Of a stretch of 64,000 nt of DNA, positions 15,098 through 24,601 are shown piece after piece; position 1 is the stretch's first letter; the number at the start of each line of letters is the position of its first letter. This DNA comes from Rhodanobacteraceae bacterium (GTDB lineage Bacteria > Pseudomonadota > Gammaproteobacteria > Xanthomonadales > Rhodanobacteraceae), in NCBI GenBank assembly GCA_009996615.1, contig JAACZU010000005.1:62001-126000 (forward strand), read 5' to 3'. The translations under genes and the position numbers were made by a program. Under the pieces are notes generated by a model. That model was not told where the DNA came from. It saw only the letters and a program-made list of their open reading frames with translations, and did not search any database.

Positions 15098-15543
15098 CGC
15101 CCGGCCTCGGCGGAACGGCGCAGGCGCGCGATCCACGCCTCCACGCCGCCGCGTGCAAGCGCGATCACGTCCTCGAAGTCGGCGTCGCCGCCGTAGTACG
15201 GATCGGGCACCTCGGCCTCGTCGAGGAACAGCGCCGGCATCGCGCCCGCCGGCGCGATGCGCCGCAGGTCGCGCAGGTTGGCGCGGTCCATCGCCAGCAC
15301 GTGGTCGAACGCGGCGAAATCGGCCGCGTGGAACTGGCGCGCGCGATGCGCGGCGAGATCGTAGCCGTGCGCCGCGGCGATGCGGATCGAGCGCGGATCG
15401 GCGCCGCGGCCGACGTGGTAGTCGGCGGTGCCGGCCGAGGCGACCTCCACGCGCAGGCCGGCGCGCGCGAACTCGCTGCGCGCGACCGCCTCGACGGTCG
15501 GCGAGCGGCAGATGTTGCCGAGGCAGACGAACAGGATGCGCAT
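15094..15543 (-). CDS. Low-molecular-weight protein tyrosine phosphatase
   Basis: 149-residue cytosolic phosphatase. The P-loop CLGNICRSP (Cys7, Arg13 of the C-x5-R-S motif) lies at the N-terminus and the general-acid loop DPYYGGD near residue 114. Length and motifs are normal for LMW-PTP/YfkJ-type enzymes. Targets are unknown. It is the first gene of a pair with the thioredoxin/NHL protein, with a 4-base overlap. No tyrosine-kinase or capsule genes adjoin it, so a Wzb-like role is not indicated. Confidence 0.93.
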   Translation of the reverse strand: MRILFVCLGNICRSPTVEAVARSEFARAGLRVEVASAGTADYHVGRGADPRSIRIAAAHGYDLAAHRARQFHAADFAAFDHVLAMDRANLRDLRRIAPAGAMPALFLDEAEVPDPYYGGDADFEDVIALARGGVEAWIARLRRSAEAGR

Positions 15544-15704
15544 GGGACCTCGAACCGGGACCTCGAACGACGTGGCGCAAGGATAGGCGATCGTGCCGGC
15601 GCCCGCGCGGCGCCGGCGTCCCGGCCTTCGTGTAATCGCGCGGGCGTTCCGTGGAAACCCAGGGTCGTGCGCCGATCGCGCGCCCTGCCCCGGGAGTCTT
15701 CGCC

Positions 15705-16346
15705 ATGCCGACCACCTTCAAGATCGAGCCGCAACGCTCCGTCGTCGCGCTGGACCTGTCGCCCGCGCAGTCGGGCATCTTCACGCCGGGCCTGGAGGCC
15801 ATCGTGCTGGCCGACGACCAGCTCGCCCGCTTCAACGCGCTGGCGCAGCTGCTCGACCCGGCGATGCCGCCGTTGTCCGGCGAGCAGATCGCCGGCGTCG
15901 CCCGCCGCGTCCTGCGCACCGCGGCCGCCGGCGGCCAGTCGCCGTTCATCGCCTCGCGCCTGCGCCGCGCGACGGAGATGCGCGCGATGGCTGCCGACCC
16001 GGCCTGGCCACTCGCGGCCGACCATGCGACGCGCATCGGCGCGCTGCTCGCCTACCTCGACGATCCCAACGACCTGATCCGCGACGACGTGCCGGTGGTC
16101 GGCCGCCTCGACGACGCGCTGCTGGTCGACATCGCGATGGACGGCCTGCGCGACGAGCTGGACGACTATGCCGAGTTCTGCCGCCATCGCAGCGCCGAGG
16201 CGGCGCGCGGCGGCGACGCCGGCATCGACCGCGCCGCGTGGGAGCAGGTGCGCGCCGACGAGTTGCGCCTAGAGCAGCAATTGCGCCGCGCGCGCGGCGG
16301 CAGCTACGGCGGCGGTGCCGTCGAGCGCATGTTCCGCATCTGCTGA
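15705..16346 (+). CDS. DUF1232 (YkvA-like) protein
   Basis: 213 residues. The central segment YLDDPNDLIRDDVPVVGRLD followed by DALLVDIAM (about residues 118-146) matches the DUF1232 pattern Y-x3-P-x-D-L-I-P-D-x2-P-x-G-x2-D-D, though with fewer hydrophobic residues than usual. The C-terminus is helical and charged. ATG 15705 has GGGAG 8-9 bases upstream. Function is unknown. It directly precedes the sigma-kinase locus on the same strand, 52 bases away, and could be its first gene. That spacer holds a palindrome, so I treat it as separate. Confidence 0.7.
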   Translation: MPTTFKIEPQRSVVALDLSPAQSGIFTPGLEAIVLADDQLARFNALAQLLDPAMPPLSGEQIAGVARRVLRTAAAGGQSPFIASRLRRATEMRAMAADPAWPLAADHATRIGALLAYLDDPNDLIRDDVPVVGRLDDALLVDIAMDGLRDELDDYAEFCRHRSAEAARGGDAGIDRAAWEQVRADELRLEQQLRRARGGSYGGGAVERMFRIC

Positions 16347-16360
16347 GGCCCGTACGGGCC
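16347..16360. promoter_or_regulatory. Perfect palindrome upstream of the sigma-factor operon
   Basis: GGCCCGTACGGGCC is a 14-base perfect palindrome immediately after the DUF1232 stop, followed by CATAATGG (a -10-like hexamer at 16360-16365). It lies about 40 bases upstream of the first sigma gene. It could be an operator or part of an autoregulated promoter; chance is not excluded at this GC content. Confidence 0.35.
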
Positions 16361-16398
16361 ATAATGGGCGCCGGCAGCTCCACCCTCGGGGAATGGTG

Positions 16399-17103
16399 AT
16401 GAGCCGATTCGAGACCACGCGCTGGAGCCTCGTGCTGACCGCCTCGGGTGGAGCGCAGGAAGCGCGTGCGGCGCTGGAAGCCCTGTGCCGCACCTACCGG
16501 GCGCCGGTCCTTGCCTATATCCGCCGCCACGTCCGCCACGGCGACGGCGCCGAGGACCTGACCCAGGCGTTCTTCCTCGAATTCCTCGAACACGCCTGGC
16601 ACGCCGGCGCCGATCCGGCGCGCGGGCGCTTCCGCGCCTACCTGCTGACCGCGGTGAAGCGCTTCCTGATCGACCAGCACGTGCTGGCGCAGCGCCTCAA
16701 GCGCGGCGGCGGCATCGTGTTCGAGCCGATCGCCACGGACGACGGCATCGACGTCGCCGGCGGCGACGACCCGGAGGCCGCGTTCGAACGCGACTGGGCG
16801 CTGGCGGCACTCGACGCCGCCCTCGCCCGGCTGCGCGCCGAAGCCGACGCGGCCGGCAAGCTGGCGCTGTTCGAACGGCTGCGCGAGTTCCTGACCGAAC
16901 GCCCCGCCGACGCCGACTACGCGCGCGCCGCGGCCGCATTGAATCTGCGCCGCAACACGCTGGCGGTGGCGGTGCATCGCCTGCGCCATCGCCTGCGCGA
17001 GCTGGTGCGGGCGGAGATCGGCGAGACCACCGGCGACCGCGACGCGCTGCAGCAGGAATTGCGCGGGCTGCGCAGCGCGCTCGGCGCGGCCTTGCCCGAA
17101 TGA
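16399..17103 (+). CDS. ECF-like RNA polymerase sigma factor
   Basis: About 234 residues. FETTRWSLVLTA and LCRTYRAPVLAYIRRHVRHG, then DGAEDLTQAFFLEFLEH (sigma region 2, about residues 30-65), RGRFRAYLLTAVKRFLIDQ, and a region-4 helix LNLRRNTLAVAVHRLRHRLR (about 180-200). This FxTTRWSLV type is the group of ECF-like sigmas I know from planctomycetes, acidobacteria and some gammaproteobacteria, often next to Ser/Thr kinases. ATG 16399 has GGGGA about 7 bases upstream. The next gene is 41 bases away. It would direct RNA polymerase to its own regulon, possibly controlled by phosphorylation from the downstream kinase (inference). Confidence 0.82.
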   Translation: MSRFETTRWSLVLTASGGAQEARAALEALCRTYRAPVLAYIRRHVRHGDGAEDLTQAFFLEFLEHAWHAGADPARGRFRAYLLTAVKRFLIDQHVLAQRLKRGGGIVFEPIATDDGIDVAGGDDPEAAFERDWALAALDAALARLRAEADAAGKLALFERLREFLTERPADADYARAAAALNLRRNTLAVAVHRLRHRLRELVRAEIGETTGDRDALQQELRGLRSALGAALPE

Positions 17104-17144
17104 AGCCAGGGGACGCGCCAGCGGCCGGCAACGAGGGGTAACCC

Positions 17145-17873
17145 ATGATGATGTCCGTGTCGAGCCAGTCGTCGCCGGGATTGCCGACCACCTGCTGGTC
17201 GCTGGTCGTGCACTGCGATCCGTCCCACGACACACGCGCCGCCGCGCTCGGCGAGCTGTGCCAGCGCTACTGGTATCCGGTCTATGCCTACCTGCGCCAC
17301 AGCGGCCACGCGCCGGAGATCGCGCAGGACATCACGCGCGCCTTCCTCGCCGACCTGCTGCGCGAGCCGCCCGCCGCCACATCCCAGCTGCCACGCCCGC
17401 GCTTCCGCGACTTCCTGCTCGAACGCCTGCGTGGCTTCCTCGCCGCCGACTGGCGCGACCTGCCCGTGGCGGACGCCACGCTGCCGGAGCCGGCCGTCGC
17501 CGAGCTCGAGGCGCGCAACCGGCTCGACCATGCCCAAGGCACCGCGCCGGTGGATGCGTACCAGCGCAGCTTCGCCGCCGAGATCATTGCGCGCGCACTG
17601 GCGCGACTGCACGACGAGGCGCGCCAAAGCGACCATCTGGACATGCTCGACGCGTTGCTGCCGTACCTGACCGCGCAGCCGGCGCCGGGCGACTACGAGG
17701 CGATTGCCCGGCGGCTGGGCCAGCGGCCGCTGGCGCTGATCGTCGCGCTCAAGCGCCTGCGCCAGCGCTTTCGCGAGCTGGTCGGGCGCGAGCTGTCCGA
17801 CACCGTCGATTCGCCCGCCGACCTGATCGAGGAACAAAGGACGCTGCATGGCATCCTCAGCGCCAAGGCCTGA
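17145..17873 (+). CDS. Second ECF-like sigma factor, diverged paralogue
   Basis: About 242 residues, aligned end to end with the upstream gene: TTCWSLVVHC, LCQRYWYPVYAYLRHSGHAP, EIAQDITRAFLADLLRE, PRFRDFLLERLRGFLAADWRD and a C-terminal LALIVALKRLRQRFRELVG. Region 2 has ITRAF where LTQAFF is usual, and the polymerase-contacting and DNA-reading segments look less conserved. It could be an alternative sigma, an anti-sigma-like decoy or a dimer partner. A good SD (AGGGG) precedes ATG 17145. The last 26 bases overlap the kinase gene in another frame, implying coupled expression. Confidence 0.78.
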   Translation: MMMSVSSQSSPGLPTTCWSLVVHCDPSHDTRAAALGELCQRYWYPVYAYLRHSGHAPEIAQDITRAFLADLLREPPAATSQLPRPRFRDFLLERLRGFLAADWRDLPVADATLPEPAVAELEARNRLDHAQGTAPVDAYQRSFAAEIIARALARLHDEARQSDHLDMLDALLPYLTAQPAPGDYEAIARRLGQRPLALIVALKRLRQRFRELVGRELSDTVDSPADLIEEQRTLHGILSAKA

Positions 17874-20800
17874 CGTGCCGCCCGCTGCCGGGCCCCTGCC
17901 AGCGGGCGCGGCACCGGCTGCGCGCGCCGCGCTGGCCGAGCTCGCGTTCGGCGGCCTGTCCGGTTCGGCGCCGGCGGCGGGCGCGGTCGCGCCGCTCGCG
18001 CTGCTGCCGAGCGACGCGCTGGAACTGGACCTGTCCGATCCGCTGCAGCGCCAGTTCGGCGCCTACGAACTGCTCGAGCGCATCGGCGAAGGCGGCATGG
18101 GCGTGGTCTACCGCGCGCGCCAACTCGACCTGGACCGCGAGGTGGCGATCAAGCTGCTCGCCGCAGGGCCGTGGGCGTCGCGCGCGTTCGTCGCGCGCTT
18201 CCTCGACGAGGCGCGCCACACGGCGCGCATGCAGCATCCGAACATCGTCACCGTGTACGAGGTCGGCACCGCCGAGGACCTGCATTTCTTCAGCATGCGC
18301 CTCGTGCGCGGCCGCAGCCTCGCCGACGCGCTGCACGCCGACGGCCCGTTCGAGCCGCGCCGCGCCGCCGCCCTGCTGCGCACCGTCGCCGAGGCGGTGG
18401 CGTATGCGCACAGCCTCAACGTGCTGCACCTGGACCTCAAGCCCGCCAACGTGCTGCTCGACGAGGAGGGCGTGCCGCACGTGGCCGACTTCGGCCTGGC
18501 GCGCAAGTTCGACCCGCTGCGCGCGCTGGACAACACCGAGATATCCGGCACGCCGAGCTACATGGCGCCGGAGCAGGCCGAAGTCGGCGCACAGCCGCTG
18601 ACGCCGGCCACCGACATCTGGGGCCTCGGCGCGATCCTGTACGACCTCGTCACCGGCGAGCCGCCGTTCCGCGCCGATACCGCCAAGTCGACGCTGGACC
18701 TGCTGCGCTTGGGCGAAGTGCGCCGGCCACGCCGCCGGCGGCCGCAGCTGCCGCTCGACCTCGAGGCGATCATCCTGCGCTGCCTGGCGCGCGATCCGCG
18801 GCAGCGCTACGGCAGTGCGCGCGCCCTCGCCGACGACCTCGCGCGCTTCGTCGAAGGACGCCCGGTGCAGGCGCGGCCGTTGAACCCGGCGCAACGCGTC
18901 GGCCGCTGGGCGCTGCGCGAGCCCAGGCTCGCCGGCGCGGTCCTGCTCGCGCTCGGCGCACTGGTCATCGGCCTGGTCGCCACCACCCAGCAATGGCGGC
19001 GCGCCGACGCCAACGCCGCGCGGGCCGAAGCGAACGCGAGCCGGGCGAAGGAAAGCGCGGCGCAGGCCAACGAGCGCCTGTGGACCGGCCGGCGCGAGGC
19101 CGCGCTGCGCCTGATGCAGGACGGCCAGGGCTTCGCCGCGCTCGTGCCGCTGCTCGACAACCTCGGCGAGCAGGAGCGCGACGGCCGCATCGATCCGCAC
19201 GCCATCGAACGACGCGAGATCGGCATGATCCTGACGCAGGGCGTGACCCTGGTCGACCGCATGATCGTGCCCGACGCGACGCCGCTGGCGAGCGCGCTGA
19301 GCGCCGACGGGACCCTGCTTGCAGTCGCGCTGAGCGACTTCAGCGTGCGCTGGTACGACACCGCCACGCTCGCCGAGCGCGGCCGCGTCGACGTCTCCGG
19401 GCTGCCGACGTCCGATGGCGACGTGCGCCTGCCGCGCCGGCTGCGCTTCATCGACGGCCACCGGCTGGCGGTGACGCTGGACTGGTTCGACTACCTCGCC
19501 AGTCCGTCGTACAACGACACGTACCTGGTCGACCTGGATCGCGCGCGCGTGCTCGCGTTCCCGCCCGCCTTCGCCGACCCGGCCGAGGCCGTGTTCAGCG
19601 ACGACGGCCGTCACGCGCTGCTGCGCAACCGCCGTGACGAGGTGCAGTTGTGGCAGGTCGAGCCATGGCGGCCGCTGTCCAGGCCACTGCGCAAGCCGCG
19701 TTCGAACGTCTGGGCGGCGCTGCTCGGCCGTTCCGGTCGCTTCGTGGCGGAAAAGGAGGAGGAGACCAACGGCTTCCTGACCCTGCGCGATCCGCGCGGC
19801 GACGCGCCGCCGCAGGCGGTCGGCATCCACGCCGCGCCGACCGCCTGGGCCGAGAGCGGCGACGGCGCGCGGCTCGCGGTCGGCGATTCGCGCGGCCACG
19901 TCTACCTCGTCGATACGGCCACGCGCGCGCTGCGCCAGTTGCCGACGCCGGCCGGCCGCGAGGTGACGTGGGTCGCGTTCAGCGAGGACGACGCCTGGCT
20001 GGCCGCCGTGCGCTGGGACGGCGCGGTGTTCGCGTTCAACGTCGCCAGCGGCGATCCGCTCAATGCCGGCCAGATGCAGGTCGACTTCGAACCGCACGAG
20101 GTCGCGATCGACCGTGCCGAGCGCCTGCTGGTCGTGAGCGGCCTCGGCCAGACGGCGCTGTGGCGCCTGCCGGAGGAGAGCCCGAACGCGCTGGAGGCGA
20201 CGCGCCTGATCGCCTCGCCCACGCGCGCCGAGCGCGCCGGCACGAACGCGCTCGGCATCGCACTGCGCGCGCGCCTGCTCGCCAGCGCCGACATGAGCGG
20301 CGAGGTGCGGCTGTGGCGCATCGCGCCGCCGGCGCAGATGGCCGCGCAGGCCGGCGCCGACGGCCAGATGGCCGGCAACCTGCACTTCGACGGCGCGCAC
20401 CTGCCGGACGTGGCCTGGAACCACGTGCGCGTGGTCGGCATCGACGGCGCGCCGCTGACGCCGTGGCGGACGCTGCCGCAGCCGCCGATGTTCGCCGAAC
20501 TCGCCGATGCCGGCCGGCTGCTGGTCGCGACCTCGGGACCGGCGCTGCACGTGCTGGACGCCGCCACGCTCGACGACCGCATCGAGCCGCTGCCGCTGCA
20601 GGCGAACCCGCAGCACCTGAGCGTGACCGCCGACGGCGCGCTGGCCGTGCTCGGCTACGGCCGCAACGGCCTGGCCGGATTCGAGATCGACGTCGAGGCG
20701 ATCGACCTGCGCTTCGGCGCGCGGCTGGCCCGCACGCGCGTGCGCGGCCCGTTGCGCCAGTTCGAGCTGGCGCCGGACGGCACGCGCCTGCTCACGACCG

Positions 20801-22215
20801 GCCCGGCCGACGGCGCCACCGAGGTGTTCGCCAGCGCCAGCCTGCAGCGCCTGGGCGCGTTCCCGCACGACCGCGCGCGGCCGGTCACCTGGGCCACGTT
20901 CGTGCCGGGCTCGGACTCGCTCTGGCTGCTCGCGCGCGACGCCGACGACGGCCTCGCCGACGATGCCGACCTGCTCGCCTGGGATCCGCGCAGCGGCCGG
21001 ATCGGCGAGCGTCGCCACGTGGCCGGCCTGTTCCCGGTCGGCGTGACCGCGCTCGGTGGCAAGCCGCTGCTCGCCGCGCGCGACCGCGACCTGCTCGATG
21101 CCGGCGCGAGCGGCGAGGTCGCCTCCGCTCCCTTTACGCACGTCGAGGCCTCAGCCGTGTTCGCGCACAGCCACGACGGCCGCCTGCTCGCACATGCCAT
21201 CGGCCGCGACGTGCAGCTCTACGACACCGCCACGCTCGCGCCGGTCGGGCCGCCGCTGCGCTCGAACGCCGGCCCGTACGCGCTGCCGTTCCAGCTCGCG
21301 TTCTCGCCCGACGACCGCCTGCTGCTCGGCGGCCTGCGGCCGTGGCTGCTGTGGCCGATCGCGGCCGACACGCGCCCGCTGGCGGAACTGCGCGCGCGCA
21401 CGCGCCTGCTGCTGCCGGCCAGCGGCAGCCGCCGCATGCTGGAGGCAACCGACGCGGCGCAGAGCGCGGCCTTGCGCCGCGACGATCCGGGCGCGCCGGC
21501 CGCCGCGGAAGCGCGCCCGACGTTCGCCGCCGCGCGCCAGGTGCGCGGCCTGCCGATTCCGCAGCGCGATGCCGCCGCCACGCGGCTGCAGCTCGACCTG
21601 ACGCCGGCCTACAACCGGCCGGTGGACCTGCGTACCGACATCATCTCGAGCGCGATCCCCGGCTACGTCGGCCTGCGCTTCGGCCTCGCCCGCATCGACG
21701 GCGTGGACTACGACCTGCGCGGCGCGATCGAGCTGCGCCGGCACGGCGCCAGGGGTTTCGACCGCATGAATGACATCGCCGTGCCCGACCTGCCGATCGC
21801 CGCGTTCCATGTACTGCTGTTCGCGCCGCTGGCGACGCCGACGCCGGGCGTACGCGACTACGCCTACGTGCGCCTGCGCTACGCCGACGGCTCCAGCGCG
21901 CGCCTGCCGATCCGCACCCAGATGGAGGTCGCCGGACTGGCAGGGCAGGACCGAATAGTCCCGATCGGCTGGGTGCGCGGCGATTTCCTGCGTCTGATCG
22001 GCCTGACCCGGCTGCAGGCGGTCAACAACCCGCGCCTGGCCAATCCGTATCCGGAGCGGCGCATCGCCTCGCTCGACCTCGAGACATCGCCGGATGGCTG
22101 GTCCAACCCGGTGTTCCTCGCCATCACGGCCGAAGCGGCCAGCGCCGCCGCGGCAACGCCGCGCATCGATGCGTCACGTCACTCAACGGAGGGGGATCAT
22201 GGGAAGAGCGAGTAA
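17848..22215 (+). CDS. Transmembrane Ser/Thr protein kinase with large beta-propeller-like C-terminal region
   Basis: 1455 residues. After a 65-residue Ala/Pro-rich leader the PknB/Hanks kinase domain spans about 72-340: P-loop GEGGMG (80-85), Lys102, catalytic loop HLDLKPAN (194-201), DFG (214-216), GTPSYMAPEQ (234-243). The HRD arginine is Leu195, so this is a non-RD kinase. One membrane segment (about 362-380) and a short Ala-rich coiled coil (384-410) follow. Residues 440-1200 form repeated WD40/propeller-like blades. The last ~200 residues are an unknown domain. Topology implies a cytoplasmic kinase and an extracytoplasmic sensor. It overlaps the upstream sigma gene (26 bases) and the downstream barrel gene (17 bases). 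Confidence 0.9.
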   Translation: MASSAPRPDVPPAAGPLPAGAAPAARAALAELAFGGLSGSAPAAGAVAPLALLPSDALELDLSDPLQRQFGAYELLERIGEGGMGVVYRARQLDLDREVAIKLLAAGPWASRAFVARFLDEARHTARMQHPNIVTVYEVGTAEDLHFFSMRLVRGRSLADALHADGPFEPRRAAALLRTVAEAVAYAHSLNVLHLDLKPANVLLDEEGVPHVADFGLARKFDPLRALDNTEISGTPSYMAPEQAEVGAQPLTPATDIWGLGAILYDLVTGEPPFRADTAKSTLDLLRLGEVRRPRRRRPQLPLDLEAIILRCLARDPRQRYGSARALADDLARFVEGRPVQARPLNPAQRVGRWALREPRLAGAVLLALGALVIGLVATTQQWRRADANAARAEANASRAKESAAQANERLWTGRREAALRLMQDGQGFAALVPLLDNLGEQERDGRIDPHAIERREIGMILTQGVTLVDRMIVPDATPLASALSADGTLLAVALSDFSVRWYDTATLAERGRVDVSGLPTSDGDVRLPRRLRFIDGHRLAVTLDWFDYLASPSYNDTYLVDLDRARVLAFPPAFADPAEAVFSDDGRHALLRNRRDEVQLWQVEPWRPLSRPLRKPRSNVWAALLGRSGRFVAEKEEETNGFLTLRDPRGDAPPQAVGIHAAPTAWAESGDGARLAVGDSRGHVYLVDTATRALRQLPTPAGREVTWVAFSEDDAWLAAVRWDGAVFAFNVASGDPLNAGQMQVDFEPHEVAIDRAERLLVVSGLGQTALWRLPEESPNALEATRLIASPTRAERAGTNALGIALRARLLASADMSGEVRLWRIAPPAQMAAQAGADGQMAGNLHFDGAHLPDVAWNHVRVVGIDGAPLTPWRTLPQPPMFAELADAGRLLVATSGPALHVLDAATLDDRIEPLPLQANPQHLSVTADGALAVLGYGRNGLAGFEIDVEAIDLRFGARLARTRVRGPLRQFELAPDGTRLLTTGPADGATEVFASASLQRLGAFPHDRARPVTWATFVPGSDSLWLLARDADDGLADDADLLAWDPRSGRIGERRHVAGLFPVGVTALGGKPLLAARDRDLLDAGASGEVASAPFTHVEASAVFAHSHDGRLLAHAIGRDVQLYDTATLAPVGPPLRSNAGPYALPFQLAFSPDDRLLLGGLRPWLLWPIAADTRPLAELRARTRLLLPASGSRRMLEATDAAQSAALRRDDPGAPAAAEARPTFAAARQVRGLPIPQRDAAATRLQLDLTPAYNRPVDLRTDIISSAIPGYVGLRFGLARIDGVDYDLRGAIELRRHGARGFDRMNDIAVPDLPIAAFHVLLFAPLATPTPGVRDYAYVRLRYADGSSARLPIRTQMEVAGLAGQDRIVPIGWVRGDFLRLIGLTRLQAVNNPRLANPYPERRIASLDLETSPDGWSNPVFLAITAEAASAAAATPRIDASRHSTEGDHGKSE

Positions 22216-23200
22216 CGCGAAACGCCACGGCAAGCTTTGTGCAGCCGCCTTGCTGGTTGCCGCCGGCCTCGCTGCCGGCATCGCGCAGGCAGGCGTCCGC
22301 AGCGACGCCGAGACGGCCGAGCAGGCGCTACACCCTTCGGCCAAGGGCCACGGCTGGATCTCGATCGGCTACCAGAACACCTACGTCAACGGCCTGCGCA
22401 CCACCGACAGCACCGTGCTCGACGTCGGCGAAGGCACGATGCGCGCGCTGCACTTCGACCTGGAGTATTTCTTCACCGACGCGTGGTCGGTGCAGGTGGG
22501 CATCCCGTACGTGTCCAAGGTGTTCCACGGCTCGCCGCACTGCCCGACCAGCGAGCCGCCGCAGTGCCGGGGCGCGCCGGCGCTGAATCCGCCGCATCCG
22601 GAGTCGCGCTTCCAGGACGACGGGCACTACCACGGCACCTGGCAGGACTGGAACATCGGCGCAGCCTGGCACGCGACGGTGCACGGCAACTACCTTCTGA
22701 CGCCGTCGCTGACGTTGTGGATCCCGAGCCACGACTACGTGTTCTTCTCCAACGCTGCCGCCGGGCAGCGCATCTGGAAGGTGGAGCCGTCGATCGAGCT
22801 GGCGCATCAGTTCGATTTCACCAACCTGTACTACCGCGCCCGCTACAGCTACGTCTACACCGAAAAGGTGCTCGACACGCGCCTCAACCACCACCGGCTG
22901 GAGCTGGAGCTGGGGTATTTCTTCAACGAGCGCTTCACGCTGCGCGGCTTCACGATCGGCAAGAAGGGCCAGGGCTACACGCTGCAGGAACTCGGCCCGC
23001 TGACCGCCGGCCGGACCAACGACTACTGGTACCACCACGACCAGCTCGCCAAGCACAACTTCGCCGAGATCGGCGTCGGCGCGGACTACCACCTGGCCGG
23101 TCCGTACACGGTCTCCGCCGCGTACCACAAGATGATCTGGGGCCAGTCGGTGATCAACTTCCGCCATGCGTTCGAGATGCGGCTGACGCGGGATTTCTAG
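22199..23200 (+). CDS. Predicted outer-membrane beta-barrel protein
   Basis: 333 residues with an N-terminal signal peptide (AALLVAAGLAAGIAQAG, cleavage near residue 27). The mature part alternates aromatic and polar residues as in barrel strands: WISIGYQNTYVNGL, HFDLEYFFTDAWSVQVGIPY, YYRARYSYVYTEK, LELELGYFFNE, VGADYHLAGPYTVSAAYHK, ending in Phe (LTRDF), the usual barrel C-terminus. Similar to transporter-like or MetA-pathway barrel families, without firm assignment. ATG 22199 follows GGAGGGGG. It overlaps the end of the kinase gene, so it belongs to that operon. Confidence 0.8.
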   Translation: MGRASNAKRHGKLCAAALLVAAGLAAGIAQAGVRSDAETAEQALHPSAKGHGWISIGYQNTYVNGLRTTDSTVLDVGEGTMRALHFDLEYFFTDAWSVQVGIPYVSKVFHGSPHCPTSEPPQCRGAPALNPPHPESRFQDDGHYHGTWQDWNIGAAWHATVHGNYLLTPSLTLWIPSHDYVFFSNAAAGQRIWKVEPSIELAHQFDFTNLYYRARYSYVYTEKVLDTRLNHHRLELELGYFFNERFTLRGFTIGKKGQGYTLQELGPLTAGRTNDYWYHHDQLAKHNFAEIGVGADYHLAGPYTVSAAYHKMIWGQSVINFRHAFEMRLTRDF

Positions 23201-23315
23201 CGCCGGCGCTCCGGGCGTACCATGGGGGCGCCGCCGTAATCGGCCGCGCCCGACGTGGAAGCCTCATCCGAGTCCCGGCGCCATGGACCGGGGAATCCGA
23301 TTGCAGGAGGACACC

Positions 23316-23816
23316 ATGCACATACCGTCCAGACTCATGCTCGGCGCCCTGCTGCTCGCCGGCGCAGTCGGCACCGACCCCGCGCAGGCCTGCGGCGAGG
23401 TCATGTACCGCATGGGCGGCGCGCTGCGCTACCAGGCGTTCGTCTCGCGCCATCCGGCGCAGATCCTGCTCTACGGCGACAGCGCCGTGGCGCAGGCCAG
23501 GGGCCTGGACCGCGACGGCTTCCGTCGCAGTCTGGAAAAGGCGGGCCACAAGATCACCGTCGCCGAGGATCCGGCCGCGCTCGAACAGGCCCTCGCGGCC
23601 CACGCGTACGACATCGTCATCGCCAGCGCGGACGACCTGTCGGCGGTCCAGGCCGCACTGGCACAGGCCACGCGCGGGCCGGCGCTGATTCCGGTGCTCG
23701 ATCGCGCCAACGAGGCGACGCTGCGCCGGCAGTACCCGCAGGCGCTCACGGCGAGCGCCGGCCTGAACCGCTTCCTCAAGACGATCGAGCGCACGATGGA
23801 AACGCGCGGCAGCTAG
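23316..23816 (+). CDS. Small exported protein, unknown function
   Basis: 166 residues. Signal peptide MHIPSRLMLGALLLAGAVG followed by TDPAQACGEV, with mature Cys just after the likely cleavage site. The mature part looks like an alpha/beta (receiver-like or Rossmann-like) fold: HPAQILLYGDSAVAQ, LEKAGHKITVAEDPAALEQA, YDIVIASADDLSAVQ, PALIPVLDRAN. It lacks the phospho-acceptor pattern needed for a two-component receiver. AGGAGGA stands 5 bases before ATG 23316. It is the last gene of the sigma-kinase operon, 115 bases after the barrel gene. Confidence 0.7.
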   Translation: MHIPSRLMLGALLLAGAVGTDPAQACGEVMYRMGGALRYQAFVSRHPAQILLYGDSAVAQARGLDRDGFRRSLEKAGHKITVAEDPAALEQALAAHAYDIVIASADDLSAVQAALAQATRGPALIPVLDRANEATLRRQYPQALTASAGLNRFLKTIERTMETRGS

Positions 23817-23839
23817 TCGCCGCGCGGCAGCTAGTCGCC
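23804..23839. repeat. Exact 18-base tandem duplication across two convergent stop codons
   Basis: GCGCGGCAGCTAGTCGCC occurs twice in direct succession (23804-23821 and 23822-23839). Because the unit contains CTAG, the first copy supplies the stop of the exported-protein gene and the second supplies the stop of the opposing kdsB gene. The duplication separated two reading frames that would otherwise share their stop region. Confidence 0.9.
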
Positions 23840-24601
23840 GCGCAGTAGCCGCTCCACGCGCGCCAGGTCCTCGGCGGTGTCGACGCCGGCCGGGAACGGC
23901 TCCGGCGCGAGGCGCACCGCGATCGCATGGCCGTGCTCGAGCGCGCGCAGCTGCTCGAGCGACTCGGCCTGCTCCAGCGGCGTCGGCGGCAGCGCGGTGA
24001 AGCGGCGCAGGAAACCGGCGCGGTAGGCGTAGATGCCGATGTGGCGCAGGAACGGAACGCCGGCCGGCAGGCGGCTGCGGTCGTGCGCGAACGCGTCGCG
24101 CGGCCACGGCAGCGGCGCGCGGCTGAAGTACAGCGCGCGGCCGTCGGCGGCGCGCACGAGCTTGACGCAGGCCGGGTCGAACAACTCCTCGACCGTCGCC
24201 AGCGGCGTCGCCAGCGTCGCCATCGGCGCATCGTCCTCGGCCAGCGCGGCCGCGACCGCGCGGATGCCGCTGGCCGGCGCGAGCGGCTCGTCACCCTGCA
24301 GGTTCACCACGATCGCATCGTCCGGCCAGCCGAACTGCTCGACGCACTCGGCCAGGCGGTCGCTGCCGGAGGCGTGGTCGGCGCGCGTCAGCGCAACCTG
24401 CACGCCGCTGCCGGCCAGCGCGTCGGCGATGCGCGCATCGTCGGTCGCGACGACGACCGTGCCCGCGCCGGCGGCGAGCGCACGCCGCGCCACGTGCACG
24501 ACCATCGGCACGCCGGCGATCGGCCGCAGCGGCTTGCCGGGCAACCGGGTCGAGCCATGGCGCGCGGGAATGGCGACGATGAAGGGAGGCGCTGCGGTCA
24601 T
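23831..24601 (-). CDS. kdsB: 3-deoxy-manno-octulosonate cytidylyltransferase
   Basis: Activates KDO with CTP to CMP-KDO for lipopolysaccharide inner-core synthesis in the cytoplasm. 256 residues, normal. N-terminal nucleotide-binding motif [15 protein letters not shown] (about residues 10-24), then [28 protein letters not shown] (about 100) and the C-terminal [15 protein letters not shown]. The start at ATG 24601 agrees with family N-termini. No kdsA or lpxK lies beside it here. It converges with the sigma-kinase operon. Confidence 0.95.

Follow-up and report, generated by a model that had tools for sequence, protein, structure and literature searches.

In the FecI-FecR-FecA system an outer-membrane receptor, a membrane signal protein and an extracytoplasmic function (ECF) sigma factor are encoded in one gene set, and in Bacillus subtilis SigO-RsoA forms a composite sigma factor of two proteins. 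A different arrangement is found in EcfP-PknT of Vibrio parahaemolyticus and EcfK-PknS of Xanthomonas citri, where the sigma factor gene adjoins that of a transmembrane Hanks kinase; ECF59, ECF61, ECF62 and ECF217 are among the other groups with a link to kinases. In ECF43/EcfP-type sigma factors the DAED motif is replaced by phosphorylatable Ser/Thr (PMC8999054). A further precedent is the PhyR partner switch, in which a sigma-like protein regulates a true sigma factor (PMC8999054, PMC8103513). Here, we describe an operon of six plus-strand genes in a stretch of 64,000 nucleotides (the window; contig JAACZU010000005.1, positions 62,001 to 126,000) from the 3.91 Mb genome of a Rhodanobacteraceae bacterium. 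It encodes a small DUF1232-like protein, two sigma-type proteins (Sig1 and Sig2), a Ser/Thr kinase with a propeller ectodomain, an outer-membrane barrel-like protein and an exported protein. Its best explanation, which in our judgement has about an even chance of being right, is that of a signalling operon leading from the outer membrane to transcription and composed of two exchangeable halves.

The operon resembles EcfP-PknT and EcfK-PknS in the adjacency of sigma factor and transmembrane Hanks kinase. As in ECF43 systems, whose kinase is thought to activate the sigma factor, no anti-sigma factor match was obtained with Pfam or NCBIfam in the window block. Unlike ECF43, Sig1 is of the FxTTRWSLV type, keeps the acidic pair and carries no Ser/Thr there; a second, diverged sigma, a propeller ectodomain and a linked outer-membrane module are added. 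In its logic the operon is like FecIRA, and 15 of the 26 relatives' loci with room behind the kinase (more than 500 bp) carry a TonB-dependent receptor (TBDR). Unlike in FecIRA, a kinase occupies the place of the anti-sigma factor FecR, and no FecR-type match was found by Pfam or NCBIfam in the six window proteins. Eight receptors of the relatives that were examined lack the STN domain at E 0.01 and have Plug and barrel domains only, and in place of a recognised TonB receptor, of which Pfam finds none in the window operon, there is a barrel together with an exported protein of receiver fold. Planctomycetes, Verrucomicrobia and Acidobacteria possess single FxTTRWSLV sigmas of the same family, with a same-strand kinase within 4 kb downstream in 24/38 loci; unlike these, the operon has a second sigma, and the single sigmas keep the Gln of the DLTQ helix (38/38) and RG[GS] (36/38). 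With PhyR, Sig2 shares the idea of a sigma-like protein controlling a real sigma factor; unlike PhyR it has no apparent receiver domain, and a NepR-like match in Pfam or NCBIfam was absent from all six window proteins. Our literature search on ECF sigma factor, kinase and TonB receptor returned no title naming such an arrangement, the 2021 ECF classification lying outside this search. New to kinase-linked ECF signalling are the outer-membrane-linked sensor cassette and the diverged sigma partner.

The block was found in three of 15 other genomes of the same genus (two labelled Dokdonella, one Lysobacterales), complete in G005 and G009 and ending at a contig edge after sig2 in G014. Because the related-genome searches score few candidates per genome, absence from them is not proof. 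In a sample of the order, 34 of 398 genomes gave a Sig2 match at 1e-10, single sigmas counted too, and in a sample of the class three of 369 genomes matched at 1e-15, all three belonging to the same order. A scan of named genomes was evaluated for the best 80 of 105 places, which gave the 79 loci to which our counts refer. Of these, 41 are proteobacterial (L119-L158, L176) and 38 come from Verrucomicrobia, Planctomycetes, Acidobacteria and similar phyla; the rows are not independent, several loci originating from one metagenome-assembled genome (MAG). Lysobacterales account for 25 of the 41 proteobacterial loci, the other 16 being labelled just Proteobacteria, Pseudomonadota or Gammaproteobacteria, and the operon occurs mainly or only in Lysobacterales.

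The order of genes is nearly constant in these 41 loci. sig1 lies immediately 5' of sig2 in 38 of them and the remaining three are at contig ends (107, 15 and 2 bp left); the kinase gene lies 3' of the sigma pair in 38, L122 and L141 being contig ends and L123 truly without it. A DUF1232-like gene recurs 5' of sig1 and is present in 16/41. No second sigma match occurred in any of the 38 non-proteobacterial loci within the available flanking DNA. Where there was room, an outer-membrane gene followed the kinase in 25 of 26 loci, either a TBDR (15) or an exported-protein/barrel pair (10). The order within the latter pair varies among loci, and in L127 it comes after a second kinase. The stop of the kinase gene may overlap the start of the module gene by 4 nt at 14 of 27 junctions, starts having been picked nearest that position. 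One MAG carries stacked modules in the order sig1-sig2-kinase-kinase-exported-barrel, one gene, sig1-sig2-kinase-exported-barrel, and the first two kinases of this array fall in different ectodomain clades. The block recurs in the genus and its core recurs widely, which is more than chance.

These results bear on an earlier note on the window, written from its letters alone. Its five same-strand genes with short spacers and overlaps of 26 bases (sig2/kinase) and 17 bases (kinase/barrel) were reproduced exactly when the coordinates were recomputed, and conservation beyond the strain, which it had proposed to examine by a co-occurrence search, is seen both in the genus and in the architecture of the 41 loci. 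A kinase-linked ECF-type system, as it had suggested, fits with the adjacency of kinase and sigma pair, and the inclusion of the envelope proteins in the unit is strengthened since ectodomain clade tracks the type of outer-membrane module (see below). Two sigmas plus a barrel had appeared an unusual arrangement; with Sig2, a sigma pair followed by an outer-membrane gene is in fact the usual one.

Sig1 and Sig2 of the window share 36% identity. In a tree of 49 sigma sequences, which leaves out the shortened S1_L101, all 22 Sig2 sequences form one clade (support 100/99) apart from Sig1 and the single sigmas. An alignment of 43 Sig1, 47 Sig2 and 38 outgroup sigmas contains 37 family-core columns, defined by a conservation of 80% or more both in Sig1 and in the outgroup. 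In Sig2, 24 of these columns are likewise conserved (80% or more), seven are mixed and six have been lost (below 20%), namely the Gln of DLTQ, four columns of the KRGG segment and one Trp. The Gln in region 2.2, which, like the Asp of the same helix, we take from work on sigma-70 to contact the RNA polymerase clamp, is found in 41/41 Sig1 and 38/38 outgroup sequences and in 4/47 Sig2. The R102 column of the KRGG segment is kept in none of the 47 Sig2, RG[GS] being present in 37/41 Sig1 and 36/38 outgroup sigmas, and the His of the recognition helix is found in 42/43 Sig1, 29/38 outgroup and 0/47 Sig2 sequences. Thus, Sig1 has the canonical ECF residues of its own family (the Gln, the KRGG segment and the His) and Sig2 does not. 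Pfam gave no sigma match for Sig2, and the NCBIfam sigma match was weak (E 9.5e-5, far under the cut-off). Sig2 has conserved residues of its own, e.g. a Pro-Leu in the recognition helix; since these exist and core columns are kept, it is under constraint and not decaying. Judged by these residues, Sig1 is most likely a working ECF sigma factor, whereas Sig2, a separate clade which keeps the family scaffold, is probably not an ordinary sigma factor. A comparison of the Sig2 profile with the PDB at E 0.01 returned no sigma factor and just four DNA-binding chains of RAP1 (1e-5 to 5e-5), and was not used.

The paralogy of the two FxTTRWSLV-type proteins postulated in the earlier note is upheld by their identity, while its view of Sig2 as an ordinary sigma factor is not, core residues being lost. 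Neither is the residue switch of EcfP-PknT, the precedent named there, supported: the acidic pair is present in 41/41 Sig1, 4/47 Sig2 and 21/38 outgroup sequences, and Ser/Thr occupies the two columns in 0/41 Sig1 and 1/47 Sig2. The Ser/Thr residues conserved in both proteins are those of the N-terminal T-x-W-S motif (41/41 Sig1, 45/46 Sig2) and a C-terminal Thr; they are candidate phosphorylation sites, nothing more.

The 1455-residue kinase scores above the Pfam Pkinase cut-off and is of the non-RD type (HLDLKPAN). The VAIK Lys, the catalytic Asp, DFG and APE are present in 20/20 kinases of two-sigma loci, and HLD replaces HRD in all 20. Hydropathy indicates a single strong helix and a weaker stretch at residues 1310-1329 inside the ectodomain. 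Modelled with AlphaFold2 (predicted local distance difference test, pLDDT, 87; predicted template modelling score 0.86), this part shows a helical stalk, an extended all-beta region and, at the C-terminus, a domain rich in beta structure. Its best Foldseek matches are WD-propeller proteins, many of them tandem, with E down to 1e-24; TM-scores normalised by query length are low, 0.20-0.29 among the matches listed. Pfam propeller-type matches occur in 19/19 members. On this modelling the ectodomain probably consists of two propellers, whose blade count we infer. The large non-RD kinase with one strong membrane helix and a propeller-like C-terminal region, as first read from the letters of the window, is thus borne out by Pfam, hydropathy and AlphaFold2. 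In G009 (L039:4470-9872) the usual stop is missing from the kinase frame, which reads on into the barrel gene for about 360 residues in a frame other than that of the barrel; either the stop was lost, or there is a sequencing error. A kinase-barrel fusion, which the 1801-residue open frame over both genes might indicate, was rejected on account of the different frame of the barrel. The genome G000 (3.9 Mb) has 13 kinase matches above the Pfam cut-off, which seems many for its size.

The two halves of the kinase gene have different histories. The ectodomain tree holds 35 kinases, and the trees with two module labels hold 29 (L156_12819 and the contig-end, 'kin' and 'none' kinases dropped). The sigma-pair tree has 24 rows, L125, L127 (mixed) and loci without classified module or without sig1 being left out, and the distance table has 26 loci, without L127, L147 and loci lacking a full-length labelled kinase or both sigmas. 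In the ectodomain tree all 11 barrel-linked kinases fall into one clade (SH-like approximate likelihood ratio test 100), which also includes one contig-end row. The module label needs to change once on the ectodomain tree (29 rows), five times on the tree of the cytoplasmic domain and six times on that of the sigma pair. In approximately unbiased (AU) tests the barrel clade was rejected for the cytoplasmic domain (p 0.0005, log-likelihood difference 100) and for the sigma pair (p 4.7e-67, difference 185). Conversely, a 10-row clade of the cytoplasmic tree was rejected for the ectodomain (p 0.0002, difference 463), a p value which is softer because the clade was picked after the tree was seen. 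An identity scan along the kinase places the changeover at residues about 360-430, i.e. in the membrane helix and the following stretch. Distances correlate between Sig1 and Sig2 (0.78), Sig2 and the cytoplasmic domain (0.80) and Sig1 and the cytoplasmic domain (0.66), but weakly between the ectodomain and the transduction parts (0.23-0.33 overall; 0.33 with the cytoplasmic domain). Module type correlates with the ectodomain at 0.41 (permutation p 0.0002). From trees, AU tests and correlations it follows that ectodomain and outer-membrane module behave as one cassette, and the cytoplasmic kinase and the sigmas as another; lineages seem to have exchanged the sensor half along with the outer-membrane protein that belongs to it. 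Not one mismatched pair of ectodomain and module was found among the 29 classified kinases, in either direction, which speaks for a functional match but is no proof of it.

The signalling reading given at the outset builds on what was computed: the recurrent architecture, the residue losses of Sig2 and the differing histories of the kinase halves. The sensor half would consist of the outer-membrane module and the large periplasmic propeller ectodomain of the kinase; it is this ectodomain that most likely senses, presumably by contact, what state the module is in. The cytoplasmic kinase domain, Sig1 and Sig2 would make up the transduction half, where the kinase may phosphorylate a sigma. Sig2 would most likely act as the kinase-side regulator of Sig1, be it as a phosphorylation-controlled partner, an adaptor or a decoy.

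Other explanations share part of this evidence. Sig1 and Sig2 might both be ordinary kinase-activated ECF sigma factors of differing promoter specificities, after the fashion of EcfP-PknT or EcfK-PknS. Both keep most of the sigma scaffold and T-x-W-S, the kinase is nearly always nearby, and EcfK is directly phosphorylated by PknS (PMC13147305). The loss from Sig2 of KRGG, of the Gln in DLTQ and of the His in the recognition helix, and the lack of Ser/Thr in place of the acidic pair in either protein, do not agree with this, so that we regard it as unlikely, though worth weighing. Near-invariable tandem pairing and the close correlation of the Sig1 and Sig2 distances would also suit a composite, heteromeric sigma factor in which both act jointly, similar to SigO-RsoA. 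Since Sig1 keeps the core residues of sigma-2 and sigma-4, it apparently lacks nothing that a partner would have to supply. From Sig2, determinants in either half have been lost, and L107 has sig2 without an adjoining sig1; a composite sigma factor is highly improbable. In a third explanation the outer-membrane genes encode a regulated uptake system carried along as mere cargo, the input of the kinase is a different one and the shared history reflects linkage, not contact. The ectodomain-coding end adjoins the outer-membrane gene, so that both could be transferred by one crossover within the conserved kinase domain, and linkage alone could keep such neighbours together. The exported-protein/barrel pair moreover exists elsewhere without a nearby sigma or kinase match, in three loci beside TPR proteins. 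Set against this is the lack of any mismatched pair, though a crossover between both genes would be equally easy, and we think that mere cargo is an improbable account of the module.

Besides this possible role of linkage, a number of observations weigh against the signalling operon of two exchangeable halves as we read it. L107 has sig2 and kinase only, as mentioned, L123 and L046 have a sigma pair without an adjoining kinase, and a sig1-like gene stands alone in L042, L043 and L044. No outer-membrane module was seen in the 748 bp after the kinase of L156, nor does one come next to the kinases of L107 and L113. Module type also shows weak correlations of 0.21 with the cytoplasmic domain (p 0.007) and 0.16 with Sig2 (p 0.02), the value for Sig1 being lower at 0.11 (p 0.065). 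Within TBDR loci the partial correlation of receptor distance is higher with the cytoplasmic domain (0.56) than with the ectodomain (0.36), in a partial Mantel test on 15 of 18 receptors, three incomplete ones left out. A matching of receptor and ectodomain inside these loci, considered as a candidate, thus found no clear support, the receptor correlating with both kinase halves. Finally, QD replaces the acidic pair in 13/38 outgroup sigmas, which weakens its loss as proof of a broken Sig2; because the outgroup often lacks the pair, the case for Sig2 rests on the Gln, the KRGG segment and the helix. Returning to the signalling operon, it is possible, and we put this forward tentatively, that it represents a new class in which the periplasmic propellers of the kinase read the state of an outer-membrane receptor or barrel, a non-transcribing sigma paralogue relays to an ECF sigma factor, and sensor cassettes are exchanged between lineages by recombination near the membrane helix, retuning a conserved core to new inputs at the surface.

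Table 1. Features of the operon, with positions counted from the first nucleotide of the window
Feature	Position	Strand	Evidence
'up', small DUF1232-like protein	15705..16346	+	Pfam DUF1232 22.9 bits vs cut-off 23
CATAAT, -10-like box 5' of sig1	16360..16365	+	position-biased word count
sig1, kinase-linked ECF-type sigma, FxTTRWSLV type	16399..17103	+	Pfam Sigma70_r2 E 1.7e-8; alignments
sig2, diverged paralogue of sig1, putatively a non-canonical sigma or a pseudo-sigma	17145..17873	+	tree, residue losses
Transmembrane Hanks-type Ser/Thr kinase, propeller ectodomain, non-RD (HLD)	17848..22215	+	Pfam, motifs, AlphaFold2
Cytoplasmic kinase domain, residues 73-329	18064..18834	+	Pfam PF00069 E 1.8e-52
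Kinase membrane helix, residues 358-383	18919..18996	+	hydropathy
Ectodomain with helical stalk, propeller region (probably two propellers) and beta-rich domain at the C-terminus	19042..22212	+	AlphaFold2, Foldseek, Pfam
Signal-peptide outer-membrane beta-barrel-like protein	22199..23200	+	N-terminal hydrophobic stretch, weak barrel-family matches
Exported receiver-fold protein, mature start probably CGE	23316..23816	+	profile, AlphaFold2, VIA-align

Spacers of 41 bp and 115 bp separate sig1 from sig2 and the barrel gene from that of the exported protein (Table 1). The ATG chosen for the latter, at 23316, comes after an AGGAGG-like site, and an alternative in-frame ATG lies at 23283. Upstream of sig1, CATAAT occurs 36-67 nt before the start in 13/36 loci, the window included, against a background of 0.0024 per 80 bp, and TGTGGCA is another position-biased short word (9/36 loci). 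The CATAAT box suggests that transcription can start between the DUF1232-like gene and sig1. A scan of window positions 15500-24000 for the sigma-70 consensus found no full promoter. A search for an auto-regulatory ECF promoter by a dyad scan upstream of 36 sig1 genes returned GC-rich words only, the best occurring in 19 loci compared to 12-15 in shuffles, and this candidate was dropped.

In the window, the six-gene block sits between a low-molecular-weight phosphatase gene (lmwp) and kdsB, which are at most 170 bp apart in ten of the 15 further genomes from the genus (1.5 kb flank). In G005 the order phosphatase-kdsB-eamA is intact and the block is on a different contig; in G009 the block adjoins the eamA orthologue, with kdsB and the phosphatase gene on a different contig. 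Given these two arrangements, the history of the block is not that of a single insertion. An 18-bp direct repeat (gcgcggcagctagtcgcc twice, by eye) lies at the right border of the block (window 23804-23839) and spans the stop codon of the exported protein.

The barrel of the window has a hydrophobic N-terminal stretch at residues 10-33 and a weak Pfam barrel match (E 0.03-0.06). Its best homologues match OMP_b-brl/Phenol_MetA_deg at 1e-5 to 1e-6, and its profile reached no lower E than 0.035 against the PDB. The family profile of the exported protein matches the receiver of RpfC in the PDB (E 1.2e-6). Its AlphaFold2 model has a mean pLDDT of 78, with block means of 81-94 from residue 71, and residues 45-166 align with the PhoP receiver (VIA-align Z 15.1, root mean square deviation 2.3 over 115 residues); the best Foldseek match has E 1.8e-3, none lying under 0.001. 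The column of the phospho-Asp after the third strand holds Asp in 2/10 members, judged by eye. As modelled, the exported protein is folded like a receiver, but its phospho-acceptor Asp is not conserved. Ala-Cys-Gly stands at the likely cleavage site in 10/10 members. The exported-protein/barrel pair is also present in the genomes of family f8, where the surrounding stretch gave no sigma or kinase match. In L114, L116 and L118 the neighbour of the pair is a TPR protein whose N-terminal part is hydrophobic. A thioredoxin-like protein is nearby; Pfam recognises it in L114, and the ones in L116 and L118 look similar to the eye.

Many sig1 or lone sig1-like genes have nearby a gene for a small, exported-looking protein that contains a REIGMLFG-type stretch and often a CTPPN motif (e.g. 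L044:11709-12688, L102:5647-6090, L103:12418-12942, L123:2036-2605, L147:7601-7999). The two examined gave no Pfam match; it is possible that these proteins are output of the sigma factor. Just 5' of genes that by eye resemble frr and uppS, L044 and L043 (G000:C16, G023:C1) have a kinase-less second sig1-like gene, and in L123 (VBNZ01000086) a sig1-sig2 pair is located at such a site, with a pyrH-like gene upstream. Proteins of the REIGMLFG type are encoded at all three of these sites. Other exported-looking proteins (L042:7433-10441, L051:12133-13854, L052:9799-11490) end at or near similar F-x-x-GF[ED] stretches, seen by eye, which are perhaps a sorting or anchoring signal.

How bacterial Ser/Thr kinases receive their input is a long-standing question. 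Here, what amounts to natural domain swaps has paired particular ectodomains with particular outer-membrane proteins, so that ligand and partner become testable by the same chimaeras. If our reading is true, these bacteria would possess an outer-membrane signalling route which needs neither FecR nor an STN domain, and Sig2 would be a sigma-fold protein turned regulator.

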